DNA from: Microbacterium gorillae
GTDB lineage: Bacteria; Actinomycetota; Actinomycetes; Actinomycetales; Microbacteriaceae
Assembly: GCF_000826185.2 (NCBI RefSeq)
Contig: NZ_LN648875.1
Coordinates: 1,112,356 to 1,176,355, forward strand
Direction: 5' to 3'
Length of the DNA: 64,000 nucleotides
Made by a program: the position numbers and the translations under genes. Below, piece after piece: positions 44,599-58,479 of this stretch. How positions within the stretch are numbered: the first letter of the stretch is position 1; the number at the start of each line of letters is the position of its first letter. Under the pieces are notes generated by a model. The model searched no databases. It had not been told where the DNA came from and saw only the letters and a program-made list of their open reading frames with translations.

Positions 44599-47500
44599 TC
44601 ACGGGCGGGGGATGCGCAGGGTGCGGACCTCAAACGGCGTCAGGGACAGCGACGTGCCGGTGCGCGGCGTGGGCAGGTCGTCCTCGATGAGGGAGACCTC
44701 GCGGACCTCGCCGTGCTCGAACCCGAGCGACAGCTCGCCGGTGGCGCGCTCGCCGAGCGACTCGTAGACACGGACGATGACGTCCCCGGAGCGGTCCGCC
44801 GCGAGCTTCACCGACGAGACGATGAGGCCCCGACCGCTGATCGAGACCAGCGGGTCGACCTCGGCCGCGCCCGAGCGCGTGACGGTCGGCGCGTTCAGCG
44901 CGATGCCGGCCGCGGTGGCGGATTCCGCATCCGCACCGATCACGAGTCCGGTCGTGATCACGTGCACGCCGTGATCGGTGTCCGGATCGGGGAAGCGCGG
45001 TGCACGCAGCAGCGACAGGCGGACCGTGGTGGTCACACCGTCATCGTCCGAGTCGCGTGTGGTGTCGAAGCCGTACAGGCCGTCGTTGACCACCGCCGCG
45101 CCGAACCCGCGCTCCTGCACCAGTACGAAGCGGTGCATCGAGGTCTCGAACTTCGCGGCCTCCCAGGACGTGTTCACGTGCGTGACGCGGGACTGGTACC
45201 CGTACTGCGTCTCGGCCTCGACGGTCGTGGCGAAGATGTCCAGCGGGAAGGACTGCTTGAGCAGCTTCTCGGTCTCGTGCCAGTCGATCTCGTTGCGGAT
45301 CAGCAGGGTGCGCTCGCCGGGCTCGAGGCTCAGCGTCTGCACCACGGACGACTCGGAGAAGCGACGCTCGATGCGCACGGCACCGTCCACGAGTTCGATC
45401 GATTCGAGCGCGGTCAGATCCGTGACGGTGTTGCGGTAGAACCGGTCGATGTCCCAGGCGTCCCACATGTTCGGGAAGTCCTGGTGCAGCTGCAGCAGGT
45501 TCGCCGGCCGGCCGACCGGGATGGTCTCCCGACGCGTGCGCAGGTCGACGGCGGACGTGATGAGGCCGTCGGACGAGATGGTCACCCGGACGAGGTCGTT
45601 CTCCAGCACGAAGCCGCCATCGTGGGACGTCGCCCGCACGCCGTCGGGCCGTCCGCCGCCGACGGACACCGTGGCTCCGTCCGAGGCCACGCCGATCGCG
45701 TGCCGGCGAACGCTCAGCGCCGCCTCCGCCACCGTCTTCGCATCCGTCCCGCCGAGGCCGCCGGCGACGGTGGAGTACGGGCGGAACACGAGTTCCGTCT
45801 CCCCATCCCCCGCGAGGGCCGCGACGGCGCCCTCGATCAGCACCATCGTGTCCGCGACGACCTGCGTCAGCACGGAGACCGCCTCGCGGTGGACCCAGGC
45901 GATGGAGGTGCCCGGCAGGATGTCGTGGAACTCGTGCAGCAGCACGGACTCCCACAGCCGGTCGAGTTCGTCATACGGGTAGTCCGCGAGACCCCGGACG
46001 GCAGCGGTCGCCGCCCACAGCTCCGCGGCGATGAGCGCCTGCTCGGCCCGACGATGCAGGGCTTTGGTCTGGTGCTGGCTCGTCAGCGTGCCGCGGTGCA
46101 GTTCGAGGTAGAGCTCGCCGACCCAGACCGCCGGGTTGGGCAGCTCGGCCCTCGCGGCGTCGAAGAAGTCGTCCGGATGCGTCCACTCCACCCGAGCGGA
46201 ACCCTCCAGGTTCGCCAGGCGCTGCTGCTTGCCGACCATCTCGCGGGTCGTGCCACCTCCGCCGTCGCCCCAGCCGACCGGGGCGATCGAGCGCGTCGCG
46301 ACGCGGTTCTCCTTGAACTGCCGCGACGCCTTCGCGACCTCTTCGCCGGAGAGCTGCGAGTTGTAGGTGTCCATCGGCGGGAAGTGCGTGAACATGCGCG
46401 AGCCGTCGATGCCCTCCCAGTCGAACGTGTGGTGCGGGAAGACGTTGCGCTGGTTCCAGGAGATCTTCTGCGTGAAGAACCACTCGAACCCGGCGCGCTT
46501 CATCAGCTGCGGCAGCGCCGGTGAGTAGCCGAACGAGTCCGGCAACCAGACGCCCTTCGAGCGGATTCCGAACTCCTGCTCGAAGAAGCGCTGGCCGTAC
46601 AGGAACTGCCGGGCCAGGGACTCACCCGTCGGCATCACGGTGTCGGACTCGACCCACATACCGCCGAGCGGCAGGAAGCGTCCGGCCGCGACGGCATCCT
46701 TCACCCGGGCGTAGACCTCCGGGCGGTGCTCCTTGATCCAGGCGTACTGCTGGGCGCTGGACATGCCGTACGTGAATTCGTCTGTCTCGTCGATCAGCGA
46801 GGTCATCGACGAGGTCGTGCGGGCGACCTTGCGGATCGTCTCGCGCACCGGCCAGAGCCAGGCCGAGTCGATGTGCGCGTGACCGATCGCGGCGATGCGG
46901 TGGGCGGACGCGTCCGCGGGTGCGGCGAGCACGTCGGCCAGCGCGGCGCGCGCGTCCGGAGCCGTCTCGACGATGCGCTGCAGGTCGAGACGGTCGAGCG
47001 CGTCGTCCAGCGCCTGGAGGATCCGCATGCGGCGCGGTTGCGTCGCCGGCAGTTCCGCCTGCAGCTCCAGCAGCACCTCGAGATCGAGCGCGAGGTCGAA
47101 CACCTCGGGCTCGAACAGCGCGAGATCGAAGCACCGGGCCCGGTAGAGCGGACGCTTCGACGAGGTCTCGATGTCCCCCTCCTGCGTCGGGAGGAAGGGG
47201 TGGTAATCCAGCAGGACCGGGTTGGACGCGGCCTCGAGGTAGAAGGACACCTCGTCCTCACCGCGCGCCTCGGCGGCGATCGGAAGCCACTGGTTGCGCG
47301 GGTTCAAGCTCTTCACCGGCGTGAGATCCGGGCGGTACACCAGGGCCTCCTGCTGGAAGCCGGGCATGTTGATGTCGAAGCCGAGGTCGATGTGCGCCTC
47401 GACACGACGCCCGTCCCAGTCCGCCGGAACGGTGCCGGTGACGTGGAACCAGGTGGTCGCCCATGCGGGCCCCCAGGGCTCGCCGACGGTGTGCGGCTCG

Positions 47501-47658
47501 AAATCCAGCGCGATGCCCTCGGCGGGAGCGATCGGCTCGCCGGGCAGCTGGTGAGCGGTCACGGTGAGGGGAACCCGTGCCGAATACACTGCGGGACGTA
47601 CCCGTTCGTCCAGCACTCGCTTCACCCGGCCGACTGTCAGTGACGTCTCGTCATGCAT
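44599..47658 (-). CDS. GH38 alpha-mannosidase, 1019 aa
   Basis: Cytoplasmic (no signal peptide) retaining alpha-mannosidase of the Man2C1/class II type. Zinc ligands are His262 and Asp264 in GHAHIDSAWLWP, the nucleophile is Asp374 in WLPDSFGYSPALPQ, and the third zinc-ligand region is HEFHDILPGTSIAWVH. Residues 1-250 form the accessory N-terminal beta domain and residues 640-1019 the C-terminal beta-sandwich. It is divergent from the LacI gene with a 16-bp operator between. Trimming of alpha-linked mannose from imported N-glycan is inferred from context. Confidence 0.92.
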   Translation of the reverse strand: MHDETSLTVGRVKRVLDERVRPAVYSARVPLTVTAHQLPGEPIAPAEGIALDFEPHTVGEPWGPAWATTWFHVTGTVPADWDGRRVEAHIDLGFDINMPGFQQEALVYRPDLTPVKSLNPRNQWLPIAAEARGEDEVSFYLEAASNPVLLDYHPFLPTQEGDIETSSKRPLYRARCFDLALFEPEVFDLALDLEVLLELQAELPATQPRRMRILQALDDALDRLDLQRIVETAPDARAALADVLAAPADASAHRIAAIGHAHIDSAWLWPVRETIRKVARTTSSMTSLIDETDEFTYGMSSAQQYAWIKEHRPEVYARVKDAVAAGRFLPLGGMWVESDTVMPTGESLARQFLYGQRFFEQEFGIRSKGVWLPDSFGYSPALPQLMKRAGFEWFFTQKISWNQRNVFPHHTFDWEGIDGSRMFTHFPPMDTYNSQLSGEEVAKASRQFKENRVATRSIAPVGWGDGGGGTTREMVGKQQRLANLEGSARVEWTHPDDFFDAARAELPNPAVWVGELYLELHRGTLTSQHQTKALHRRAEQALIAAELWAATAAVRGLADYPYDELDRLWESVLLHEFHDILPGTSIAWVHREAVSVLTQVVADTMVLIEGAVAALAGDGETELVFRPYSTVAGGLGGTDAKTVAEAALSVRRHAIGVASDGATVSVGGGRPDGVRATSHDGGFVLENDLVRVTISSDGLITSAVDLRTRRETIPVGRPANLLQLHQDFPNMWDAWDIDRFYRNTVTDLTALESIELVDGAVRIERRFSESSVVQTLSLEPGERTLLIRNEIDWHETEKLLKQSFPLDIFATTVEAETQYGYQSRVTHVNTSWEAAKFETSMHRFVLVQERGFGAAVVNDGLYGFDTTRDSDDDGVTTTVRLSLLRAPRFPDPDTDHGVHVITTGLVIGADAESATAAGIALNAPTVTRSGAAEVDPLVSISGRGLIVSSVKLAADRSGDVIVRVYESLGERATGELSLGFEHGEVREVSLIEDDLPTPRTGTSLSLTPFEVRTLRIPRP

Positions 47659-47693
47659 GATTTCCTCCGCACGGCCAGCACGGCCTCGTGCTC

Positions 47694-47709
47694 ACTAAAT
47701 CGATCAAGT
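47694..47709. promoter_or_regulatory. LacI operator of the glycan regulon, site 1
   Basis: ACTAAATCGATCAAGT, a CG-centred 16-base palindrome (14 of 16 bases symmetric outside two pairs), in the spacer between GH38 and the LacI gene. TAGAGT (47709-47714) may be the -10 of the LacI gene, seven bases before its ATG. Confidence 0.8.
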
Positions 47710-47721
47710 AGAGTTGATCCT

Positions 47722-48744
47722 ATGCCACCGGTCAAGCGCGTGACCATCGCGGACATCGCCCGCATCGCCGGCGTGTCCCCCGGCGCCGTGTCCTTCGCGC
47801 TGAACGGCAAGCCCGGCGTCAGCGAGGCGACGCGCGAGCGGATCCTGCAGGTCGCGCAGGACCAGAAGTGGAGCCCGTCCCAGGCGGCACGGGCTCTCGT
47901 GGGCGCTCGAGCGAACGCCATCGGTCTCGTCCTGAACCGCCCGGCGCGCTCGCTGGGCACGGAGGCGTTCTTCGCGGACCTGATCGCCGGCATCCAGGCC
48001 GGCCTCAGCGACGGCAAGCTCAGCCTGCAGCTGCGCCTGGTGTCCAGCTTCGAGGAGGAGCTGGAGACGCACCGGCACTGGCACGCCGCTCACCAGGTGG
48101 ACGGCGTGCTCCTCATCGACCCGCGCGACGACGATCCCCGGCAACGCGCGCTGGAAGAGCTCGGCGTCCCGACCGTCGTGGTCGGTTCGCACGCCTCCGC
48201 ACCCGGCAGCGCACCCGCGGTCTGGCTCGATGACGCCGCGACCGCACACGAGCTGTTCGACTACCTCGCTGCCCTCGGCCACACCCGCATCGCCTATGTC
48301 GCCGGGCCGGAGGAGTTCGACCACACGCGCCTGCGAACAGCGGTGCTGGACGGCCTCAGTGCGCGCGGCGTGAGCTCGGAGACGATGGCCACGGACTTCT
48401 CGCCGGCCGTGGCGGGCACGGTCACCCGCCGCCTGCTGAGCGCGGCGAAGCGGCCCACCGCCATCGTGTACGACAACGACGTGATGGCGGTCGCTGGACT
48501 GCGCGTCCTGCAGGAGATGGGCGTCGCGGTCCCCGCCGACGTGTCGGTGGCCTCGTTCGATGACTCGGTGATCGCCGAGCTCGTCCGCCCCTCGATCACG
48601 TCGATGACGCGTGACACGTTCGCGCTCGGGCAGCGCGCGGCCGCTCTCCTGCTGCGCCAGATCGACGCGTCCGAGCCGCTGCCCAGTGAAGCCGGCGCGA
48701 CGCCGACGCTGACGGTGCGCGAGAGCACCGCGCGACCCGTCTGA
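47722..48744 (+). CDS. LacI family regulator of the N-glycan locus, 340 aa
   Basis: The helix-turn-helix is VTIADIARIAGVSPGAVSFA (residues 7-26), followed by hinge SQAARALVGARANAIGLVLN and a sugar-sensing domain with DGVLLIDPRDD, ELFDYLAALGHTRIAYVAGP and VSVASFDDSVIAELVRPSIT. The short leader between a -10-like box and the ATG suggests a leaderless transcript. Four copies of one palindrome around the glycosidase and transporter genes make it the probable repressor of the whole set. The inducer is unknown; a mannose-containing oligosaccharide is expected. Confidence 0.9.
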   Translation: MPPVKRVTIADIARIAGVSPGAVSFALNGKPGVSEATRERILQVAQDQKWSPSQAARALVGARANAIGLVLNRPARSLGTEAFFADLIAGIQAGLSDGKLSLQLRLVSSFEEELETHRHWHAAHQVDGVLLIDPRDDDPRQRALEELGVPTVVVGSHASAPGSAPAVWLDDAATAHELFDYLAALGHTRIAYVAGPEEFDHTRLRTAVLDGLSARGVSSETMATDFSPAVAGTVTRRLLSAAKRPTAIVYDNDVMAVAGLRVLQEMGVAVPADVSVASFDDSVIAELVRPSITSMTRDTFALGQRAAALLLRQIDASEPLPSEAGATPTLTVRESTARPV

Positions 48745-48818
48745 GCCCCTCCACCACGCATCCGGGCCACGCGACTCACCCGCACATGAGAGTTCTCTCG
48801 TTCTCCTGGACCGCGTCC

Positions 48819-48834
48819 ACTAAATCGCTATAGT
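48819..48834. promoter_or_regulatory. LacI operator of the glycan regulon, site 2
   Basis: ACTAAATCGCTATAGT shares its first nine bases with site 1 and lies 49 bases upstream of the Endo H start. Confidence 0.82.
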
Positions 48835-48883
48835 CGCTCCCACGACGTCGACCGTGCCGCATCGATCACAGGAGAACGAAGCC

Positions 48884-50104
48884 ATGCCCTCGAACGACCA
48901 CCCGTCCACGCGCCTGAGTCGCGCCGGACGCCTGACTGCCCTGGCCGCCGTCGCGGCCCTCGGCTTGCTCGCCCCGATGGCCGCCACGGCCGCGCACGCC
49001 GCCCCCGATGCGGACGGCGATGGCCCGCAGACCGTCGTGTACGTGGAGGTGAACGACAACGATTTCGCCAACGTCGCGGACTACACGCTGGCCGGCACCG
49101 ACCGCCCGACGTTCGACATCGCGGCGATCTTCGCCGCCAACATCAACTACGACGGCGAGAAGGCGTACCTGCACCTGAACGAGCGGGTCACCGAGACGCT
49201 GGAGAACGCGGACACCCAGATCCGGCCCGTCCAGGCGCGCGGAACCAAGGTCCTGCTCTCGATCCTCGGCAACCACCAGGGCGCCGGCTTTGCGAACTTC
49301 GCCTCCGCCGCGGACGCCGACGCGTTCGCCGCGCAACTCGCGGACGCCGTTCAGACGTACGGCCTGGACGGCATCGACTTCGACGATGAGTGGACCGAGT
49401 ACGGCGTGAACGGCACCGGTCAGCCGAACGAGAGCTCCTTCGTCCAGCTCGTGACCGCCCTGCGCGACCGTCTGGGTCCGGACAAGCTCATCACGTTCTA
49501 CAACATCGGTCCGTCGGCGCAGCACCTGGAGTACGGCGGCGCGCGCGTCGCTGACGCCATCGACTACGCCTGGAACCCCTACTACGGGTCCTACGACGCA
49601 CCGGTCATCCCCGGAATGGCGAATGACCGCCTCGGCGCCGCCGCCGTGGACCTGTCGCAGACCTCGGCCGCGACCGCTCTGGAGTTCGCCCAGCAGACCG
49701 TCGCCGACGGTTACGGCGCCTACGTGACGTACAACCTGACGGCGACGGACCAGTCGGCGTACCTGTCCGGCATCACGCAGACCTTCCACGGTCTGGACAC
49801 GGTCTACAAGGCCGAGCCTGGCGACTCGACGGCCCCGACGGCGACAGTGATCGACGCCCGCAAGTACACCAAGCCCGCGCGGGACGGCGCGTACAAGCGC
49901 GTCGCGTTCACCCTCGCGGACGAGGGCGGGCTCGCCTCCGCATCGGTCAACGGCCACGAGATCGCGTTGAACGGCGTCACCGAGTCGAAGCTGACGAACC
50001 TGCGTCCGGGCTGCAACGGCGCGCGCTTCGGGGAGAACACGCTCGCCGTCACGGACCTCGCCGGCAACACCACGACGGTGACCTTCACCCTCGCCCGCCA
50101 CTGA
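48884..50104 (+). CDS. Secreted Endo H-type GH18 endo-beta-N-acetylglucosaminidase, 406 aa
   Basis: Cleaves between the two core GlcNAc residues of high-mannose N-glycans. A signal peptide ends near AHA (residue 39). The mature GH18 domain follows Streptomyces Endo H closely: VVYVEVNDND, FAANINYDGEKAYLHLN, KVLLSILGNHQGAGFANF, catalytic DGIDFDDE (residues 162-169, acid Glu169, helper Asp167), FYNIGPSAQHLEYGG and AWNPYYGSY. A C-terminal beta domain (about 312-406) with two cysteine-poor strands is extra. GGAG precedes the ATG. Confidence 0.94.
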   Translation: MPSNDHPSTRLSRAGRLTALAAVAALGLLAPMAATAAHAAPDADGDGPQTVVYVEVNDNDFANVADYTLAGTDRPTFDIAAIFAANINYDGEKAYLHLNERVTETLENADTQIRPVQARGTKVLLSILGNHQGAGFANFASAADADAFAAQLADAVQTYGLDGIDFDDEWTEYGVNGTGQPNESSFVQLVTALRDRLGPDKLITFYNIGPSAQHLEYGGARVADAIDYAWNPYYGSYDAPVIPGMANDRLGAAAVDLSQTSAATALEFAQQTVADGYGAYVTYNLTATDQSAYLSGITQTFHGLDTVYKAEPGDSTAPTATVIDARKYTKPARDGAYKRVAFTLADEGGLASASVNGHEIALNGVTESKLTNLRPGCNGARFGENTLAVTDLAGNTTTVTFTLARH

Positions 50105-50116
50105 TCCACCCTCACG

Positions 50117-50161
50117 GGCCGAAGCGCCGGACTCGAAACGCAAGCGTCCGGCGCCTCGGCC
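50117..50161 (+). terminator. Terminator of the Endo H gene
   Basis: Sixteen-base arms starting GGCCGAAGCGCC and ending GGCGCCTCGGCC, with one G-T pair, 13 bases past the stop. Confidence 0.85.
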
Positions 50162-50209
50162 ACACACGTTTCGCGCGGGCGCTCGCTCGATGACCGGACC
50201 TCCGCCGGA

Positions 50210-50719
50210 TCATCGACCGTCGAGCCACTCCGGGGGCTCCTGGCGGACACCGGCGACGATGAGTTCTGCCGCAGCGCGGATGCGTGCGGTCACGGTGTCG
50301 AGCGGTCGGCCCGCGTAGGCGGCGTCCGAGTGATCGTCCGAGAACCGCGCGAGAGCGTTCACGATCGCGTGCTCGCTGGTGTGACCGAAGACGCCATGGG
50401 TCCAGTCCGCGAGCGCGGCAGCGCTGATCTCGCCGGTGAGCATCCGGCGGCACTGCGCGGCGGCGGCCCGACCGTCCCGGGCCGCGGGTGGCAGGTCCGG
50501 CAGTGCGAGCTCGGTCGCCACGTGCGCGATCAACGCATCGAGCTCGAACGGGTTCATGTGCCCGCTGACCGCCGCGAGCTCGGCCAGCGCCGGCGAGTCC
50601 TCGCCGGCGGCGAGAGCATCGGCCGCAGCACGACTGACCTCGGCGGAGCCGTCCAAGCCGATCATCCGGCGCGCGACGGCCTCGATCAGCAGCGTTCGGG
50701 CATCGGGGGCGGGGGACAT
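50210..50719 (-). CDS. Hypothetical helical protein, 169 aa
   Basis: Not recognised. The sequence is Ala-rich and probably all-helical (DARTLLIEAVARRMIGLDGS, SPALAELAAVSGHMNPFELD), with no signal peptide, membrane segment or catalytic motif. It lies 38 bases downstream of the GH92 stop on the same strand, so it could be the last gene of the transporter/GH92 operon, although the function may be unrelated to glycans. Confidence 0.55.
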   Translation of the reverse strand: MSPAPDARTLLIEAVARRMIGLDGSAEVSRAAADALAAGEDSPALAELAAVSGHMNPFELDALIAHVATELALPDLPPAARDGRAAAAQCRRMLTGEISAAALADWTHGVFGHTSEHAIVNALARFSDDHSDAAYAGRPLDTVTARIRAAAELIVAGVRQEPPEWLDGR

Positions 50720-50757
50720 GGCGACATTGTGGCAGGTCGCGCAGCAGCCCCCAGGGG

Positions 50758-53700
50758 TCAGTCCAGCGTGAACAGTTCCAGCTGGCGGAGCACGACGGGG
50801 CGACGGGCACGGACGCGGACGCCCGACAGCGCGGACGGGGCTGCGACGCGGAACGGCGTCGTGCGATCGGCCGACAGTGCTTCCGCGTGGGTCATCGGTA
50901 GCGGCGACCAGGTCTGCCCGTCGATGGTGGCTTCCCACAGCAGGTCATCGCACGCCGCACTCGCGGCGGTGGTGACCGAGACATCGGTGACCACGGTCGG
51001 CGCGTCGAAGATCCAGCCCGCAACGGCGTCCGGACCGAGGGGCAGATCGACACCGGAGGCGCGGTCATCGAACGCCGCCACCCCGCCGACCGAATGGCCG
51101 GGGCCGGATGTCAGATCCGCACGGTACTCCCGCACCGCCGCGGCGCGGGGAGCCAGCACGGACGCCTCCTCCTCCCCCACCTCGAGCTCCAGCTCCGACG
51201 CGGCCGCGAGCGCGCGCACGTCCACCCAGGGTTCGTCGAGGGCGACTCCGTCCACGCGCACGCCGGTGAGCACGTCCGCGGCGGCGCTCGCGCGGTGGAC
51301 TCGAATGCGCAGGGTCGAGCCGTCCGGACGCACCACCGACAGGTCGTCGAACAGCGGGACGCCCACGAACAGCCGTCCGGAGGCGAGCTCGAGCGGGTAC
51401 AGGCCGAGGGCCGCCCACAGCCACCACGCGCTCATCTCGCCGTTGTCCTCGTCGCCCGGGAAGCCCTGACCGAGGTGCGCGCCCGCGAACAGTCGTCCGG
51501 CGAGGTCCCGGACCGTGCGCGTGGCGAGGTGCGGACGGTCGGTGTGGGCGTACATGTACGGAATGTGGTGCGCGGGCTGATTGGAGATCGCGCACATGCC
51601 GCTCCGCTGCGCGCGTGCCTCCCGCTGCTCGTGGATCACCGTGCCGTACGTCCCGCCGAACTCCGCCGCGGCGGTCTCCACTTCCGCGAACAGCCGATCC
51701 AGGTGATCACCGAGGGCGGCCGGACCGCCGTGCAGCGCGGCCAGCCCGGCACCGTCGTGCACGGGCGCGACGGACATGCCCCAGGCGTTGGTCTCGACGT
51801 TGTCGCCACCCCACACCCGGCGGTCGAACGGCTCCGCGAAAGCCCCGTCCCGTCCGCGGCCACGGAAGAACCCGGTGTCGGGGTCGAACAGGGCGCGGTA
51901 GGACAGTGCACGATTGGCGAAGTAGCGCGCGTGCGCGTCCCACCGTGCGGCGTCCGCACCGGCCTCGGCCCGGCGCCGCGCCCAGCGGCCGATCGCCGCA
52001 TCCGACACGGCGTTCTCCAGGCTCCAGCTCATGCCCTCGCGCGTCTCGCGGTCGACGTATCCGACGAAGCGGGCACGGTCGATGCCGGCCCGGCCGCGGT
52101 CCGGCCGCGGTGCCGGCTCGCACGCGTTGCGCCACGCGCTCTCATACGCGGCGTCGGCGTCCAGTGCGATGCCCCACGCGTCCGCATCGGCGAAGATCTG
52201 GTCGCTCGAGGTGCCGACCATGGAATCCACGTAGCCGGGTGCGCTCCACCGGGCCATGTATCCGCCGCGTCGGTCCTGCATCAGTACGCCGTCGAGCAGC
52301 ACCGCCGCGCCGTCCGGATCCAGGATCGCGAACGCCGGCCACACCGTCCGATACGTGTCCCAGTAGCCGTTGTTGACCATCAGCTCGCCGTCGGCGATCG
52401 GCGCGCCGGTCTCGGTCTCGCCGTGCACCCCGGCCGGAACCATCGGGTCGGCGAACGCCCACTGCGGAGCGTCGTGCGTGCCGCGATTCTCCGCGGCCGT
52501 GTTCGGGTAGAGGTGCAGACGGTGCAGCGCCGCGGCCAGCCGCGCCCGATTCTCCCGATGCGCCAGCGCGCGGTAGGGCACGTCCTCGGCGGGCAGGGGC
52601 GGAATCGTCACCGCGGACAGCAGGGGACGCCACTGCGCCGCGGCCGCATCGCGAAGGTCGTCGAACTCCCGCTCCGCTCCGGCCTCGAGCTCCAGGGTGC
52701 GCCGCGCCTGCGCGACGGAGAGGAAGGACTGCGCGATGCGCACCTCCACCTCGTCCTGACCGTGCACCGCGCCGACCCACGGCGCACCGACCGCGTCCGC
52801 CGGCGCGGTCCCGGTGACGCCGCGGACGACCCGTCCGGCGAAGAACGCGCGCGGGGCGTTGCCCCACGTCGCGGAGCCCTCGCCGATCCATCCGGAGAAC
52901 GTGTCCGGGCCGTCGACGCGAAGCGCCCCCCGCGCGTCCGGCTGATCGATGATGAAGCCGAGTTCGCCCTCCCCGCGCACCCGGAACGCCGCCACCCGGC
53001 TCGTGGCGGTCGCCTCGATCGTGTCGCCGCCGACCAGGTCCGCCGACCAGGTGTGCGGCGCGGCGACCTCCGATCCGGGCACGATGTGCCGCCGGCGCTG
53101 CGCCGGACCCGCCACGGGCGCGCCCCGGAACGGCTGGACGTGCAGCACCGTGCGATCGCCGATCCAGGGGCTCGGCTGGTGCGACAGCGCGAGGGCCTCC
53201 AGCCGTCGCCCCGCCGGGTCATCGTGCCGGTAGGGACGGTACGGCCAACGGGTGTTCGTGGCGTCCGTCGCCGGGGTCACGAACAGGAAACCGTGCGGCA
53301 CGGCGACCGCCGGAATCGTGTTGCCGCGGGAGAACGCGTCGCCGGAGTGCGTTCCCCGTCGCGTGTCGACCAGGGCGAGCGGCTCCGCCTCGTGCTGCAC
53401 CGTGGCCTGCTCGATGAGAACCTCGATGAACCCGCTGACGCGTTCCCCCGCGCCCCCGGGCAGACCGAGCACGACTTCCACGCCCACCCGACGCCCGGCC
53501 CAGGGGGCGAGAGAGACGGTATCGGCGTTCCACTGCTCCGGCATGCTCCAGCGGGCGTCGAACTGCGCCGCCGCGGTGAGCGCGAAGCCGTACCGGTCGC
53601 GCACGCGGGGGTCCGCACTCAGACGTGCACCGTCCGCGTCCACGACATCGATCGTCACCGCCAGCGGCGCGTAGGGCGGTGTGACCGCCGCCTCTCCGTC

Positions 53701-53895
53701 CGCGTAGAACGCCCAGTGCACGAGCGTGTCCGCCGTGGCGTCCACCGCCTCCAGCCCCGGAACGCTCAGGCGCTGCTCCCCGTCCGCGGCATCGAAGGCG
53801 TACGCGAACACCGCGCCGCCCAGCACGCCGGAACGCGGACGGGACGAGGGCGGGTCGGCGGGTCCGCTCGCGCGGATGAGGACCGGAGCGGTCAC
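50758..53895 (-). CDS. GH92 alpha-mannosidase with extra N- and C-terminal domains, 1045 aa
   Basis: A calcium-dependent inverting exo-alpha-mannosidase family, usually acting on alpha-1,2-linked mannose. GH92 core from about residue 175 to 900: VDTRRGTHSGDAFSRGNTIP, NNGYWDTYRTVWPAFAILD, ARWSAPGYVDSMVGTSSDQI, and the signature GDEDNGEMSAWWLWAALGLY near residues 813-832. The first 170 residues are an unrecognised beta domain and the last 130 resemble an F5/8-type domain. No signal peptide is visible, so it should act on imported glycan. GTG start overlaps the permease stop. Confidence 0.92.
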   Translation of the reverse strand: MTAPVLIRASGPADPPSSRPRSGVLGGAVFAYAFDAADGEQRLSVPGLEAVDATADTLVHWAFYADGEAAVTPPYAPLAVTIDVVDADGARLSADPRVRDRYGFALTAAAQFDARWSMPEQWNADTVSLAPWAGRRVGVEVVLGLPGGAGERVSGFIEVLIEQATVQHEAEPLALVDTRRGTHSGDAFSRGNTIPAVAVPHGFLFVTPATDATNTRWPYRPYRHDDPAGRRLEALALSHQPSPWIGDRTVLHVQPFRGAPVAGPAQRRRHIVPGSEVAAPHTWSADLVGGDTIEATATSRVAAFRVRGEGELGFIIDQPDARGALRVDGPDTFSGWIGEGSATWGNAPRAFFAGRVVRGVTGTAPADAVGAPWVGAVHGQDEVEVRIAQSFLSVAQARRTLELEAGAEREFDDLRDAAAAQWRPLLSAVTIPPLPAEDVPYRALAHRENRARLAAALHRLHLYPNTAAENRGTHDAPQWAFADPMVPAGVHGETETGAPIADGELMVNNGYWDTYRTVWPAFAILDPDGAAVLLDGVLMQDRRGGYMARWSAPGYVDSMVGTSSDQIFADADAWGIALDADAAYESAWRNACEPAPRPDRGRAGIDRARFVGYVDRETREGMSWSLENAVSDAAIGRWARRRAEAGADAARWDAHARYFANRALSYRALFDPDTGFFRGRGRDGAFAEPFDRRVWGGDNVETNAWGMSVAPVHDGAGLAALHGGPAALGDHLDRLFAEVETAAAEFGGTYGTVIHEQREARAQRSGMCAISNQPAHHIPYMYAHTDRPHLATRTVRDLAGRLFAGAHLGQGFPGDEDNGEMSAWWLWAALGLYPLELASGRLFVGVPLFDDLSVVRPDGSTLRIRVHRASAAADVLTGVRVDGVALDEPWVDVRALAAASELELEVGEEEASVLAPRAAAVREYRADLTSGPGHSVGGVAAFDDRASGVDLPLGPDAVAGWIFDAPTVVTDVSVTTAASAACDDLLWEATIDGQTWSPLPMTHAEALSADRTTPFRVAAPSALSGVRVRARRPVVLRQLELFTLD

Positions 53896-54803
53896 CCCTT
53901 GACCGCGCCCTCCTGGACGCCCTTGAAGAAGAAGCGCTGCGTGAACGAGAACATGATGATGATCGGGATCAGCGCGATCATCGTGCCGGCCGCGATCAGG
54001 CGCGGGTCGACGGCGAAGTTGCCGTTCAGGTACGCCATGCCGACGGTCAGCGTGTACTTGCCGGGGTCGCTCAGCACGATCAGCGGCCAGAGGAAGTCGT
54101 CCCAGGCGCCGATGAAGGCGAAGATCGCGACGACCGAGACCATGCCGCGGACGTTCGGCCAGACGATGTGGCGGATCTTCTGCCAGGTCGTGGCGCCGTC
54201 CACGGTCGCCGCGTCCAGGACGTCGGCCGGGATCATGCGACACGCGGTGGCGATCAGCAGCACGTTCATGGCGCTGATGGCGCCGGGCAGGAAGACGCCC
54301 CACAGGGTGTCGGCGAGGCCGAGCGATTTGATCGTGAGGAAGTTGCTCGTCACGGTGACCTCACCGGGCAGCAGCATCGTGGACAGCAGGATGCCCATCG
54401 CGATGTACTTGCCGCGGAAGCGCATGCAGCCGAGGGCATATCCGCCCATCAGCGCCAGGACGACGTTGCTCAGCACGGTGCCGAGCGAGACGAGCAACGA
54501 GTGCCACGCGTACAGGTACACCGGAATCAGGTCGGTGACCTTGATGTAGTTCTGGATCGTCGGTTGTTCCGGGATGAGGTTCGGCGGGAACGAGTAGATG
54601 TTCTCCGTCGGGCTCTTCAGCGACGTGGACAGCTGCCAGACGAACGGTCCGATGACCAGGAACAGCACGATCAGCAGCAGGGCGTAGCGGATGATGAGTC
54701 CGGTCAGCGTGGGCTTGGAGAAGTCGCCCGACCCGCCGCGGCGGATGATCGGTTCGCGCGGAGGCTTGCGCGTCTCGCGAGTGGAGGCGGTGGTGGCGCT
54801 CAT
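53892..54803 (-). CDS. Sugar ABC transporter permease, MalG type, 303 aa
   Basis: Six membrane helices, the first near residue 30 (LIIRYALLLIVLFLVIGPFV), and the EAA loop DVLDAATVDGATTWQKIRHI that docks on the ATPase. It belongs to the oligosaccharide importer family CUT1. It overlaps the other permease gene by four bases and GH92 by four bases. No ATPase gene is in the cluster, which is typical when a shared MsiK-like ATPase serves many importers. Confidence 0.9.
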   Translation of the reverse strand: MSATTASTRETRKPPREPIIRRGGSGDFSKPTLTGLIIRYALLLIVLFLVIGPFVWQLSTSLKSPTENIYSFPPNLIPEQPTIQNYIKVTDLIPVYLYAWHSLLVSLGTVLSNVVLALMGGYALGCMRFRGKYIAMGILLSTMLLPGEVTVTSNFLTIKSLGLADTLWGVFLPGAISAMNVLLIATACRMIPADVLDAATVDGATTWQKIRHIVWPNVRGMVSVVAIFAFIGAWDDFLWPLIVLSDPGKYTLTVGMAYLNGNFAVDPRLIAAGTMIALIPIIIMFSFTQRFFFKGVQEGAVKG

Positions 54804-55732
54804 GCGGGGGTCTTCGCCTTCTTCTCACGGTTCATGAACGCGATGGCCGCGAGCGGAATCAGGGTGAGCAGGAACAGGGCGACGCTGATCGCCGAGGCGT
54901 AGCCGACGTTGCCGGTGAGTCCGGACCCGACCTGCCGGATGAGCATGACCAGCGACATGTCGTAGCCGCCGGGACCGCCGGTGCCCTTGGAGAGCACCTC
55001 CAGCTCGGTGAACACGCGCATCGCGGACACCGCGATCAGCACCGCGATCAGCAGCATCGCGCCGCGGACGGCGGGGATCGTGACGGAACGGAAACGGCGG
55101 AACGCGTTCGCGCCGTCCAGCATCGCGGCCTCGTGCAGCTCCTTGCCGACATTGCCGAGCGCGGCGAGGTACACGACCATGTAGTACCCGACGCCCTTCC
55201 ACACGGTCAGCAGGATCGAGCAACCCAGCAGCAGCCAGCGATCGACGAGGAACGGGATCGGCTGGTCGCTGATGCCCATGAACTGCAGGGCCTCATTGAA
55301 GATGCCCTTGCTGTCGAACAGCCACTGCCAGATCAGCGCGACGACCACGACGGAGGCGATCACCGGGAAGTAGAACGTCGTCCGGAACAGCGCGATGCCG
55401 GGGATCACCTTCTCCACGAGCATCGCCAGCAGCAGCGGCAGGAAGGTCAGCAGGGGCACGCAGACCACGACGTAGATGAGGCACGTCAGGATGGCGTTCC
55501 AGAACATATCGTCGCCGAACATGCGCTCGTAGTTCGAGAATCCGACGAAGTCCGCGGACCGGAGGGGCCGCGCGTTCGTGAAGCTCAGGATGACCGTGTT
55601 CAGGAACGGCCACAACGCGAACACCAGCACCCAGATGACGGCGGGGCCGAGCAGCAACCATGGGGTGAACCACTTGTGGCTGCGCAGTCCCGTTCGACGG
55701 CGGGCTCGGGTGCCGGTGTTCGCGTCAGTCAT
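54800..55732 (-). CDS. Sugar ABC transporter permease, MalF type, 310 aa
   Basis: Six helices with the MalF-type first periplasmic loop (NARPLRSADFVGFSNYERMF) and the EAA loop LHEAAMLDGANAFRRFRSVT. The start ATG at 55732 gives a charged cytoplasmic leader GTRARRRTG before the first helix; a longer frame would overlap the binding-protein gene. It forms a heterodimer with the MalG-type permease. Confidence 0.9.
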   Translation of the reverse strand: MTDANTGTRARRRTGLRSHKWFTPWLLLGPAVIWVLVFALWPFLNTVILSFTNARPLRSADFVGFSNYERMFGDDMFWNAILTCLIYVVVCVPLLTFLPLLLAMLVEKVIPGIALFRTTFYFPVIASVVVVALIWQWLFDSKGIFNEALQFMGISDQPIPFLVDRWLLLGCSILLTVWKGVGYYMVVYLAALGNVGKELHEAAMLDGANAFRRFRSVTIPAVRGAMLLIAVLIAVSAMRVFTELEVLSKGTGGPGGYDMSLVMLIRQVGSGLTGNVGYASAISVALFLLTLIPLAAIAFMNREKKAKTPA

Positions 55733-55739
55733 GCGTGGG

Positions 55740-57050
55740 TCACTTGTCCACGCGGTTGTCGTTGGCGTACTTGACGATCTTGTCCAGGGTGTCCTTGGCG
55801 CTCGCGTCACCCTTGATGGCGAGGGCCATCTGCTGGGTCATGTACGTCGTCATGTCACCGGTCCACTGGAACGGCAGGGCGCGCGCGTCCTTCATGGCAC
55901 CGAACACGGTGTCGATGGCCTTGATCTGGTGCTCGTCGGTCACCGTCTCGGCGACCTTCTTCACGACCTCGTCACCACCGGAGGCGGTACCCGGCGCGGT
56001 GCCGACCGCCAGCGTCGAGAACGCGACCTGGTTGGCCTCGTTCGTGACGTACTCGGCGAAGGCGAGGGCCGCGGCGGCGTTCTTCGTCTTGGCGGACACG
56101 TTGACGCCCTGCACGTACAGCGGCGGGGTACCGAGGCGCGGCGTCGCGACGACGTTCTCGAGCAGCTTCGGAGCGTCCTTGGCGAGGTCGGTCGTGAAGC
56201 CGGTGCCACCGGTCGTGAACGCGACCTTCTCCTGGATGAACGCCTGCGCGTTGCCGCCGTAGCTGCCGGTGAGCGCCTCGGCCGGCATGGCGCCGGCCTT
56301 GTACGCGGCGGCGTAGGCCTCGACGATCTTGACCGCGTCCGGGCTGTTGAAGACGAACTCGCCCTTGTCGTTGATCAGCTTGATGTCAGCCGCGCCGAAG
56401 GTGTCCAGCGTCGGGATGGAGCTCAGCAGCTGCACCTTGCCCTTGGACTCCTCGCCGACCTTCGTCGCGAGCGTCAGCAGTTCATCGACCGTCTTCGGCA
56501 GGTCCGCCTCGGTGACGCCGTAGGGCTTCAGCTGCGCCATGTTCCACCAGGACGCATCGCTGCTGAGGTACCAGGGCAGACCGTAGGTGCCCTTGACACT
56601 GGGGTACTGGCTGTACGAGTCCCAAGCGCCGGCGTTGTACTCGGTCTTCAGCTTGGCATCCGCCGCGTTGAGATCCATCAGCTCGCCGGCGGAGACCAGC
56701 GGGTACGCGATGTCCGGCGGCAGGTTGAGCACGTCCGGCAGCGTGTTGGAGTTCGCCTGGCTGAGGATCTTGTCCTGGTAGCCGTCACCGGGCTGGTCCA
56801 ACCACTCGACCGTGACCTTCGGGTGCTCCTTCTCGAAGGCGGCGATGAGGTCGGTGAAGTAGGGCGTGAACTTCTCGTTCTTCAGCGACCACGTCTGGAA
56901 CGAGATCTTGCCGCTGAGTTCGCCGGACGTGTCCACGGCCTCTCCGCCGCCGGTCGACGTTCCTCCCCCTCCACCGGTGCATCCGGTGAGCGCGAGGGCG
57001 GTGACGGCGGCGGTTGCGGCCAGAGCGACGACTCGTTTCGTGAGTTTCAT
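55740..57050 (-). CDS. Oligosaccharide-binding lipoprotein of the ABC importer, 436 aa
   Basis: A lipoprotein signal (MKLTKRVVALAATAAVTALA followed by LTGC) and a Gly/Thr linker precede a CUT1-type solute-binding fold: VEWLDQPGDGYQDKILSQAN, KGTYGLPWYLSSDASWWNMA, EAFIQEKVAF-like (AQAFIQEKVAFTTGG). Several Trp residues could stack on sugar rings. First gene of the minus-strand operon, with operator site 3 in its promoter. The ligand is inferred from context to be a mannose-rich glycan. Confidence 0.88.
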   Translation of the reverse strand: MKLTKRVVALAATAAVTALALTGCTGGGGGTSTGGGEAVDTSGELSGKISFQTWSLKNEKFTPYFTDLIAAFEKEHPKVTVEWLDQPGDGYQDKILSQANSNTLPDVLNLPPDIAYPLVSAGELMDLNAADAKLKTEYNAGAWDSYSQYPSVKGTYGLPWYLSSDASWWNMAQLKPYGVTEADLPKTVDELLTLATKVGEESKGKVQLLSSIPTLDTFGAADIKLINDKGEFVFNSPDAVKIVEAYAAAYKAGAMPAEALTGSYGGNAQAFIQEKVAFTTGGTGFTTDLAKDAPKLLENVVATPRLGTPPLYVQGVNVSAKTKNAAAALAFAEYVTNEANQVAFSTLAVGTAPGTASGGDEVVKKVAETVTDEHQIKAIDTVFGAMKDARALPFQWTGDMTTYMTQQMALAIKGDASAKDTLDKIVKYANDNRVDK

Positions 57051-57097
57051 CGTGCTTCTTCCTTGAATGCGAATGATCAGCGCCGTCGACTGTGGAG

Positions 57098-57113
57098 ACT
57101 GTAGCGCTTTAGC
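57098..57113. promoter_or_regulatory. LacI operator of the glycan regulon, site 3
   Basis: ACTGTAGCGCTTTAGC, 47 bases upstream of the binding-protein start. Reverse complement GCTAAAGCGCTACAGT; the ACT...AGY ends and CG centre match the other three sites. Confidence 0.72.
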
Positions 57114-57239
57114 TTGAAGGAAACCATCACCCGTGAGGCTTGTCAAGATCACGGTGAGAGCGCGGAAGCGCTGGGGAGGTTCGTGCTCGGATCAGCCTCA
57201 TATCGCGGTCAGACGCCGCCGGAACTCTCGACAAACATC

Positions 57240-57255
57240 ACTCAAGCGTTATAGT
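57240..57255. promoter_or_regulatory. LacI operator of the glycan regulon, site 4
   Basis: ACTCAAGCGTTATAGT, 48 bases upstream of the GH5 start, the same distance as the sites in front of the Endo H and transporter genes. Confidence 0.78.
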
Positions 57256-57303
57256 CACCTGAGTCAGTCGACGCCTCACTCGTCGCTGCGAGGAGGCATT
57301 GCG

Positions 57304-58479
57304 ATGAAGTTCGGCGTCAACTACACCCCCCGTGTCGGGTGGTTCCACCACTGGGTGGACTTCGACGCGGCCGAGGTCGCCCGCGACTTCGACACGATCG
57401 CGGAGCTCGGCGTGGACCACGTCCGCGTGTTCCCGCTGTGGCCGATCTTCCAGCCGAACGCGACGTTCGTGTCCCCCACCGCGCTCGGTCACCTGGAGAC
57501 CGTGATCGATCTCGCCGCCGAACGCGATCTGCAGGTCGCCGTGGACGGTCTGCAGGGACACCTGTCCAGCTTCGATTTCCTGCCGGCCTGGCTGGCGACC
57601 TGGCACCGCCGCAACATGTTCACCGATCCGGACGTGATCGCCGCGACCTCGATGTTCCTGGAGACCCTCGCTCGGGTGGCGGGCGCCCACGAGAACGTGT
57701 TCGCGCTCACGGTCGGCAACGAGGTGAACCAGTTCTCCGGCGGCGTGCACCCGGATCCGTTCCCGGCCACGCCGACGCAGACGGACGCGTGGTTGGACGC
57801 GACGCTCGGTGCGCTTCGTCGTGGAGCCCCGGACCTGCAGATCATGCACGCGTGCTACGACGCCTCCTGGTACGAGAACACCCAGCCGTTCACGCTGGAG
57901 CAGGTCGCCCGTCGCGGCGACGTCACGGTCACCCACTCCTGGGTCTTCAACGGCACCGCGCAGCGGTTCGGTCCGGACGCCTTCGAGACGCGGGCGCACG
58001 CGCGCTACCTGATCGAGGTCGCGCGCGCGTTCCAGACGGACCCGCAGCGTCCGATCTGGGCACAGGAACTCGGCGCCCCGCGCAACGTGCTGCCGTCCTC
58101 GTCGATCCGGCCGTTCATCGACGAGACGATCGGCCAGCTGGCCGATGCCCCGGACCTCACCGGCATCACCTGGTGGTGCTCGCACGACGTCTCCCGCGCG
58201 CTGGGGGAATACCCGCCGCTGGAGTACGACCTCGGCCTCATCGACGAGAACGGCGCGATCAAGGACGAGGGGCGGTGGGTGGCCGAGGCGGTGGCAGTGG
58301 CCCGAGACACCACACCGCGGACGGATCGACCGGTGCTCGAACTGCGCTACGACGAGCTCGGCGGACGCTCGGCCCTCGCCCCTGAGGGGTCCTTCTTCGC
58401 CGACTACATGGAGCTCGCCCGCACGGCCGGACACCCCCGGATCGACCTGGTGCGGGACCCGAATTCATCAGTCTGGTGA
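57304..58479 (+). CDS. GH5 beta-mannosidase-like glycosidase (GH5_18 type), 391 aa
   Basis: A TIM-barrel retaining beta-glycosidase without signal peptide, so cytoplasmic. The acid/base is Glu140 in TVGNEVNQF, the nucleophile Glu255 in IWAQELGAP. The start MKFGVNYTPRVGWFHHWVDF and the segment DGLQGHLSSFDFLPAWLATW resemble GH5_18 enzymes of Bifidobacterium that split the core Man-beta-1,4-GlcNAc of N-glycans. That specificity is inferred from memory of family features and the gene context. GAGGAGG precedes the ATG. Confidence 0.83.
   Translation: MKFGVNYTPRVGWFHHWVDFDAAEVARDFDTIAELGVDHVRVFPLWPIFQPNATFVSPTALGHLETVIDLAAERDLQVAVDGLQGHLSSFDFLPAWLATWHRRNMFTDPDVIAATSMFLETLARVAGAHENVFALTVGNEVNQFSGGVHPDPFPATPTQTDAWLDATLGALRRGAPDLQIMHACYDASWYENTQPFTLEQVARRGDVTVTHSWVFNGTAQRFGPDAFETRAHARYLIEVARAFQTDPQRPIWAQELGAPRNVLPSSSIRPFIDETIGQLADAPDLTGITWWCSHDVSRALGEYPPLEYDLGLIDENGAIKDEGRWVAEAVAVARDTTPRTDRPVLELRYDELGGRSALAPEGSFFADYMELARTAGHPRIDLVRDPNSSVW

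Follow-up and report, generated by a model that had tools for sequence, protein, structure and literature searches.

What does a cluster of glycoside hydrolase, importer and regulator genes at 44599–58479 do in Microbacterium gorillae, a member of the Microbacteriaceae? The cluster lies in a window of 64,000 nucleotides (the whole stretch of DNA analysed, from contig NZ_LN648875.1), for which a preliminary description had proposed the utilisation of high-mannose N-glycans. By matching to protein families and PDB chains we find an endoglycosidase, an importer, alpha-mannosidases and a predicted Man-GlcNAc-splitting enzyme within this one locus. All the genes named in that description were recovered as listed below, with profile scores far beyond chance. 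Start codons were corrected from the sequence for LacI (47722), Endo H (48884), GH92 (53895, reverse), the substrate-binding protein (SBP; 57050, reverse) and GH5 (57304).

44599..47658, reverse strand: GH38 alpha-mannosidase, 1019 aa (Pfam PF01074/PF07748/PF09261/PF17677)
47722..48744, forward strand: LacI-family regulator, about 340 aa (PF00356, PF13377)
48884..50104, forward strand: Endo H-type GH18 endo-beta-N-acetylglucosaminidase, predicted secreted (NF045482, 1edt)
50758..53895, reverse strand: GH92, 1045 aa, predicted alpha-1,2-mannosidase (PF07971, PF17678, 7nsn)
53892..54803, reverse strand: ABC importer permease 2 (PF00528)
54800..55732, reverse strand: ABC importer permease 1 (PF00528)
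55740..57050, reverse strand: SBP with lipobox ALTGC (PF13416/PF01547, N-terminus)
57304..58479, forward strand: GH5_18, predicted exo-beta-1,4-mannosidase, 391 aa (7lr7, 6gvb)

The best explanation is very probably a LacI-controlled locus for the utilisation of high-mannose N-glycans. Here, secreted Endo H would cut between the two core GlcNAc residues of a high-mannose glycan, leaving one GlcNAc on the protein, and the released Man(n)GlcNAc would be imported by the SBP and the two permeases, probably powered by an unlinked ATPase of the UgpC/MsiK type. In the cytoplasm, the alpha-1,2-mannoses would be taken off by GH92 and the other alpha-mannoses by GH38, GH5_18 would cleave Man-beta-1,4-GlcNAc, and the resulting sugars would enter central metabolism via unlinked kinases and a NagB-type enzyme. 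Since the imported glycan would have a single GlcNAc, a hexosaminidase would not be needed, and a Pfam profile search found none among the locus genes.

The endoglycosidase exceeds the cut-off of the NCBIfam equivalog model NF045482 (394 bits, cut-off 300), and in a PDB sequence search 1edt matches residues 54–317 of the protein (P0003) with an E-value of 4e-92. Its catalytic residues D119, D121, D122 and E123 (trimmed-row numbering) are invariant in 10 aligned rows, bearing out the earlier claim of an Endo H homologue with an intact catalytic site; the C-terminal domain measures about 90 aa. Hydropathy suggests signal-peptide-like N-termini in both Endo H and the SBP, in agreement with the proposed secretion of Endo H. 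By the same measure the N-termini of GH38, GH92 and GH5_18 carry no such stretch, consistent with the three apparently cytoplasmic mannosidases of the preliminary description.

The closest solved chain to the SBP in single-sequence and profile PDB searches is 6wpm, a code that occurs in the available parts of PMC8938411 and PMC8786288. The matches from these searches are general sugar SBPs, none of which points to N-glycans as ligands; Man(n)GlcNAc is a presumptive ligand. The set had been called logically complete, a description that has to be qualified: neither an ATPase nor a sugar kinase has a gene among those at 44599–58479. Elsewhere in the genome the UgpC model has one match above its cut-off (475 bits, cut-off 432), the NagB family has two (227 and 75 bits) and the ROK family 12, two of them sharing one frame, and these may supply the partners.

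Among the mannosidases, GH38 matches PF01074 with an E-value of 6e-92, and its best PDB relative is 7ufs (E 4e-233), followed by 7ufr, 7ufu and 7uft, all of which we take to be B. longum enzymes. The GH5 protein gave no Pfam or NCBIfam match at an E-value of 0.001. Its closest solved relatives are the GH5_18 enzymes 7lr7 (ScGH5_18, E 2e-126) and BlMan5B/BlGH5_18, and its matches to 7lr7, 6mp2, 7lqx and the exo-beta-1,4-mannosidase 6gvb (E 2e-94 for the last) all have E-values of 2e-94 or better. According to the available text of PMC6160142, CaMan5_18 cleaves Man-GlcNAc and has an active site comprising acid/base Glu140, nucleophile Glu259, Asn139, Arg41 and Ser88. Four of these residues (R41, S88, N139 and E140) have the same numbers in the locus enzyme, and E255 is taken, by reading of the alignment, as the counterpart of Glu259; all five are invariant in 16 aligned rows. 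The protein groups with characterised GH5_18 enzymes, as had been expected, and is predicted to be an exo-beta-1,4-mannosidase of this subfamily.

The only GH92 of the genome matches PF07971 (E 7e-95), with 7nsn as its closest solved relative (E 3e-152). SpGH92 uses acid E489, base D600 and a +1 triad of W70 and H540-E541 (available parts of PMC5215778 and PMC10167667). By hand-mapping on the 7nsn alignment, which assumes a presumed tag offset of 23 residues, the locus enzyme retains both the catalytic acid and base and the +1-subsite triad known from alpha-1,2-mannosidases, and W244, E701, H755-E756 and D817 are invariant in 9 aligned rows. We predict that it is an alpha-1,2-mannosidase.

Mannan pathways also employ GH92 and GH38 (PMC10154615, in part), and from its title and residues we infer that 7nsn is the Neobacillus enzyme that was assayed with yeast mannan in the accessible part of PMC10167667. 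The true target could be fungal (yeast) alpha-mannan or the outer chains of mannoprotein, with Endo H merely freeing the chains and GH92 and GH38 as the main workers. However, a genome-wide search matched neither a GH76 endo-mannanase nor GH125, and such a target is therefore less likely; GH5_18 suits the N-glycan core, and GH92 is without a signal peptide by hydropathy. We have downgraded this alternative accordingly and consider it quite improbable.

A variant of the high-mannose N-glycan explanation would place GH92 outside the cell through non-classical secretion, trimming the glycan before Endo H acts. Robb et al. suggested this role for SpGH92, which is likewise without a known secretion signal and was put outside by argument (PMC5215778, in part). 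Against this, the GH92 gene of our locus overlaps a permease gene by 4 bp, and 14 unbroken relatives (13 from Microbacterium and one Arthrobacter record) share its start point; inspection by eye showed nothing hydrophobic in their N-termini. Moreover Endo H, unlike EndoD, is not known to require prior trimming of its substrate. We regard an extracellular GH92 as highly improbable.

The preliminary description had placed the genes under one LacI regulator. A 14-bp palindrome, CTAWARCGYTWTAG, is found about 50 bp upstream of the Endo H, SBP and GH5_18 start codons, and a weaker site lies between GH38 and LacI.

48820..48833, forward strand: operator-like palindrome CTAAATCGCTATAG with 1 mismatch, some 50 bp upstream of Endo H
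57099..57112, reverse strand: operator-like palindrome (CTGTAGCGCTTTAG on the forward strand) with 1 mismatch, some 50 bp upstream of the SBP gene
57241..57254, forward strand: operator-like palindrome CTCAAGCGTTATAG with 1 mismatch, some 50 bp upstream of GH5_18
47695..47708, no strand assigned: possible degenerate operator, 4 mismatches, between GH38 and LacI

A putative operator shared by three transcription units and kept in related loci backs the idea of a single regulator. The palindrome appears to overlap a −10-like box (TATAGT/TACAGT), where the LacI repressor would bind until freed by a glycan-derived inducer, and having a defined palindrome makes induction testable. With up to 2 mismatches, 3 matches occur in the window compared to a shuffle mean of 0.03, and the 3.7-Mb genome holds 4, of which 3 are the sites of the locus. 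Since the reversed pattern, used as a control, gave 19 matches per strand against these 4, their number in the genome is unremarkable; what stands out is just where they lie and how close together. Across related genomes we counted 81 matches in 32 core loci (639 kb), compared with 20 over the 1291 kb of 68 other loci. The site at 47695 is not significant by itself because 8 positions with 4 mismatches occur in the window, and as it is the sole site there we do not claim an operator before GH38/LacI. Several other loci have sites with 2 mismatches between these two genes.

We also examined relatives for synteny, a check that the preliminary description had asked for, and the result was strong. 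We sampled 198 genomes from the genus, and 27 of them, counting our own, have Endo H. All 27 also have GH5_18, and GH92 adjoins Endo H in 26 (own included), the exception being genome G320. GH5_18 lies within 9 kb of Endo H in 24 of the 27 and on a different contig in 3 (own genome included in the count). Within the genus, having an Endo H with the GH5_18 core is an ordinary accessory trait. GH5_18 itself occurs in 58 of the 198 genomes. A genome scan retained 80 Endo H loci, 63 of which have no GH5_18 core in their flanks at the thresholds used.

The Endo H match is missing from 31 of the 58 genus genomes with GH5_18, and 21 of 58 core loci show none of three endoglycosidase kinds (Endo H, EndoS-type GH18 and GH85) in the stretch read, which for some is ended by a contig end. 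Both observations would fit a core that serves as a general scavenger of Man-beta-1,4-GlcNAc or small N-glycans, taking up oligosaccharides released by other organisms, with Endo H a recent and loosely linked arrival. This partly overlaps with our preferred explanation. However, Endo H has the same palindrome in the window, and among 26 core rows it lies directly 5′ of Endo H in 16 (counting our own), where shuffles expect 0.06; in addition, the 31 genomes lacking Endo H include 9 with an EndoS-type gene and 2 with GH85 by the core. We consider general scavenging unlikely.

Returning to dedicated N-glycan use, the 58 core loci comprise 25 with Endo H, 9 with an EndoS-type GH18 and 3 with GH85. 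The Endo H loci have GH92 in 19 of 25 cases and GH20 in 3; GH92, missing from the other 6, is dispensable. All 9 EndoS-type loci have GH20 and none has GH92. One endoglycosidase thus seems exchangeable for another, each type fitting its exo-enzymes, although allowing for kinship on a LacI tree the Endo H–GH92 pairing falls short of significance (median p 0.22 over 7 independent pairs) and the EndoS–GH20 test, with 4 pairs and a median p of 1, lacks power. The tree was a quick one from LacI only, with 20 of 50 inner branches open and long branches, two of which (L116 and L220) meet.

We slightly favour the view that the LacI regulon works as a modular platform for N-glycan use, in which secreted endoglycosidases (Endo H, EndoS-type GH18 or GH85) have repeatedly been swapped into a core of importer, GH38 and GH5_18 with one operator, each with the exo-enzyme that its product requires: high-mannose arms would call for GH92, and complex arms capped with GlcNAc for GH20. 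If so, the endo/exo pair would predict the class of glycan that a strain eats. Interchangeable front ends would offer natural comparisons of high-mannose and complex-type use on one core, and would supply Endo H-, EndoS- and GH92-type enzymes together with an annotation rule for GH5_18/GH38 loci.

Several known systems resemble this one, as far as the available portions of the papers cited describe them. In N-glycan locus 1 of Cutibacterium acnes, GH38 and GH5_18, the latter active on Man-GlcNAc, likewise adjoin ABC transporter and regulator genes; that locus also has GH20 and a GH18 without a secretion signal, its secreted genes being dispersed, whereas ours has GH92, no GH20 and a predicted secreted Endo H preceded by the shared palindrome (PMC6160142). 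The Bifidobacterium longum high-mannose pathway, as summarised in the review PMC10154615, which cites a B. longum paper by Cordeiro et al., shares endo-enzyme release, whole-glycan import and intracellular GH38, but uses three GH38 enzymes and GH125 from one operon in place of one GH38, GH92 and Endo H in a genome without a GH125 match. Streptococcus pneumoniae, with EndoD, SpGH92 and NgtS, has GH38, ABC import of Man5GlcNAc and a GH92 whose +1 triad is that of our enzyme; there, however, EndoD acts only once GH92 has trimmed the glycan to Man5 and is in the locus only sometimes, GH125 is present, and the term GH5_18 is absent from the available text (PMC5215778). The high-mannose operon of Bacteroides thetaiotaomicron also groups a GH18 endo-enzyme (BT3987) with GH92, but has three GH92 enzymes in a Bacteroidales PUL instead of an ABC importer with LacI (PMC10154615).

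The novelty suggested at the outset stands in part. Our full-text search of open-licence papers, which is weak evidence of absence, found no such locus named in the Microbacteriaceae, but Endo H with the core recurs in the genus as an accessory trait and is similar to the published systems of C. acnes, B. longum and S. pneumoniae. Dedicated N-glycan foraging, which the papers cited describe for gut and host-associated bacteria, would extend to a family in which many species have Endo H with the core. GH5_18 together with GH92 or GH38 occurs as terms in the available text of PMC11475409 (Streptomyces) and PMC9120177 (Lentzea).

Family scans confirmed the genes that the preliminary description had named in 44599-58479 (GH38, LacI, GH18, GH92, two BPD permeases and the substrate-binding protein, SBP, of the ABC importer), and Endo H scores over the cut-off of its curated equivalog model. 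The eight genes run GH38(−), LacI(+), Endo H(+), GH92(−), permease 2(−), permease 1(−), SBP(−) and GH5_18(+). The GH5 has no match in the Pfam or NCBIfam scans; in a phmmer search against the PDB it groups with 7lr7 (ScGH5_18, E 2e-126), BlMan5B/BlGH5_18 and 6gvb (E 2e-94), bearing out the expected GH5_18 assignment. Nearest solved relatives of the other enzymes in PDB searches are 1edt (Endo H), 7nsn and then 5swi (GH92), and 7ufs, 7ufr, 7ufu and 7uft (GH38). The locus is real, and a putative role in high-mannose N-glycan utilisation is a well supported reading of its sequence. The Endo H and GH92 genes, nearly adjacent in congeners, are here separated by an open frame:

50210-50720, (−) strand: open frame of 170 aa, no Pfam match

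Endo H also has a C-terminal domain of ~90 aa (window ~49802-50092, residues 317-413 of the protein, P0003); copies of it, sometimes in tandem, also turn up in large open frames elsewhere in the family (e.g. genomes G079 and G194).

The Endo H catalytic residues, described earlier as intact, lie in a motif invariant in ten aligned rows. In the active-site numbering of CaMan5_18, taken from the available part of PMC6160142, E140, N139, R41 and S88 carry identical numbers in the window GH5_18 and are invariant in 16 aligned rows, as is E255, which we take to be the counterpart of CaMan5_18 E259. SpGH92 residues were placed on the window GH92 by hand via the PDB-search alignment, allowing for a tag offset of 23 that was deduced from the length of the chain; E489, D600, W70 and H540-E541 fall on E701, D817, W244 and H755-E756, all invariant in nine aligned rows. 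The +1 triad (W, H-E) is linked to alpha-1,2 specificity in the accessible text of PMC10167667 and PMC5930347. Judged by N-terminal hydropathy (best 13-residue value), Endo H (2.4) and the SBP (2.3), the latter with an ALTGC lipobox, have signal-peptide-like hydrophobic N-termini; by this measure GH38 (0.9), GH92 (1.5) and GH5_18 (0.9) have none. The GH92 gene overlaps a permease gene by 4 bp, and the printed N-termini of 14 unbroken relatives start at the same point as the window GH92.

Since the Endo H product bears one GlcNAc, the predicted GH92, GH38 and GH5_18 would suffice to take it to monosaccharides. Genome searches found a single GH92, no GH76 or GH125 match, two NagB-family matches (227 and 75 bits) and 12 ROK-family matches; the UgpC model is matched above its cut-off once, outside the locus. 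As far as the accessible text of the sources goes, GH38/GH5_18 alongside ABC genes are published for C. acnes (PMC6160142), GH92/GH38 with an importer for S. pneumoniae (PMC5215778), and the B. longum and B. thetaiotaomicron N-glycan pathways are covered in a review (PMC10154615). The C. acnes locus is described in PMC6160142 for a chitobiose-bearing core, with GH20 handling that step. No description of an Endo H-GH92-GH38-GH5_18 set in this family was found in the partially covered full-text literature.

Among 299 sampled genomes of the family (own included, weaker matches excluded), strong Endo H (≥265 bits) occurs in 10 and strong GH5_18 (≥216 bits) in 19, all 10 being within the 19; the two genes lie ≤17 kb apart in 9/10 and ~840 kb apart in G295. 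In a sample of 198 genomes from the genus, the own one among them, Endo H (E ≤ 1e-30) occurs in 27, GH5_18 (E ≤ 1e-40) in 58 and GH92 (E ≤ 1e-60) in 49, and every one of the 27 Endo H genomes has both GH5_18 and GH92. The synteny proposed as a check in the preliminary description is present: Endo H and GH5_18 are ≤9 kb apart in 24/27 (on separate contigs in 3/27) and GH92 adjoins Endo H in 26/27, the exception being G320. Hypergeometric values for co-occurrence, which ignore kinship, are 1.8e-17 (genus) and 6.8e-14 (family). A scan of named genomes returned at least 341 Endo H loci, the best 80 of which were analysed. At the thresholds used, 17 of these have the GH5_18 core in their flanks: 13 Microbacterium records, Arthrobacter sp. 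AQ5-06, Myceligenerans pegani, Leifsonia aquatica and Streptomyces tateyamensis. The other 63, many from Streptomyces and some on short contigs, show no such core in their flanks; L088 and L101, counted here as core-less, hold parts of the locus. This distribution makes Microbacterium the probable genus of the window's genome.

Many congeners (G324, G435, G436 and others) have a second, more distant GH92 (~37-43% identical) in open frames of up to ~2000 aa. Perhaps these are secreted multi-domain enzymes like those that PMC10167667 mentions from Microbacterium sp. M-90. In Microbacterium sp. Se63.02b (L091, 11084-13899) GH92 is split into several frames, possibly by sequencing error; its other locus genes match whole. 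The window GH5_18 (57304-58479) is 66% identical to that of L072, from another genus, but 44-47% to full-length GH5_18 of the Microbacterium-type loci compared (L086-L104; 50% to L071). The window's permeases (75-85%), SBP (65-74%) and GH38 (70-79%, often partial) are closer to the Microbacterium-type loci, a pattern that looks like the displacement of a single gene within the locus.

Reading the intergenic stretches, we spotted a repeated palindrome, CTAWARCGYTWTAG. At ≤2 mismatches the window has exactly three matches (48820, 57099 and 57241; shuffle mean 0.03), all ~50 bp upstream of a start codon, and these are three of the four places matched in the own 3.69-Mb genome. Since a reversed-pattern control gave 19 matches per strand in this genome, the count alone is not unusual; placement and single mismatches are what speak. 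The right half, TATAGT or TACAGT, resembles a −10 box by eye.

For other loci, searching with the palindrome is a test and not a fit. The 32 core loci (639 kb, own included) hold 81 matches, 49 at ≤1 mismatch, hits that are not independent because many of these loci are close kin; 68 other loci (1291 kb) hold 20, three at ≤1 mismatch, and three of the 20 sit in the cut-off locus pieces L088 and L101. Of the 26 core rows, own included, 16 have it directly upstream of Endo H (0.06 expected from single-letter shuffles) and the remaining 10 have none there; of 65 non-core rows, 10 have it (0.36 expected likewise). Records with the palindrome before Endo H and no core seen alongside include those from Micropruina, Acidipropionibacterium, Brachybacterium, Kribbella and Kutzneria. 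Since a similar palindrome precedes Endo H genes with no core in view, Endo H could remain part of a LacI-type regulon when it is unlinked. Two-mismatch forms before Endo H without a visible core were seen in L070 (7836), L097, L105, L111, L130 and L157.

A more interesting lead than the locus itself is a swappable endoglycosidase with a matched exo-enzyme. Neighbouring core loci lacking Endo H were retrieved and annotated by local phmmer; nine have an EndoS-type GH18 (PF23916 in all six scanned) and three a GH85 (PF03644 in 3/3). The 58 core loci counted exclude the own locus and any locus in which GH5_18 lacked a partner (LacI, GH38 or SBP) above thresholds. They are a non-random sample, 17 Endo H loci coming from the Endo H scan and most others having been fetched for their GH5_18. 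The GH20 query was verified by PF00728.

Endoglycosidases and exo-enzymes in 58 core loci
Endo H: 25 loci; GH92 in 19, GH20 in 3
EndoS-type GH18: 9 loci; GH92 in 0, GH20 in 9
GH85: 3 loci; GH92 in 0, GH20 in 1
None of the three found: 21 loci, some cut by contig ends; GH92 in 3, GH20 in 7

The palindrome lies directly upstream of the EndoS-type gene in 6/9 loci and of the GH85 gene in 1/3. We read these loci as showing an extracellular cutter that would be interchangeable on a constant intracellular core, the window being the putative high-mannose version. A quick tree built on LacI (53 rows) needs at least 16 changes of endoglycosidase state, true swaps being fewer because 'none' was scored as a state. 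Independent pairs on this tree lean towards Endo H with GH92, on average 4.7 for and 0.7 against out of 7, without reaching significance (median p 0.22). For EndoS with GH20, at 0.9 for and 0 against out of 4 (median p 1), the comparison is unpowered. For one EndoS-type enzyme (L231), the nearest solved relatives in a PDB search are 6kpl ('Chitinase'), 7puj, CP40 and EndoS-named chains. Two Enterococcus loci outside this core (L100 and L102) have Endo H and an EndoS-type domain together. Six core loci that lack Endo H (L216, L223, L224, L227, L232 and L235) have a sulfatase next to GH5_18 (assigned by PF00884/PF16347 for L227 and by phmmer for the other five), hinting at sulfated N-glycans.
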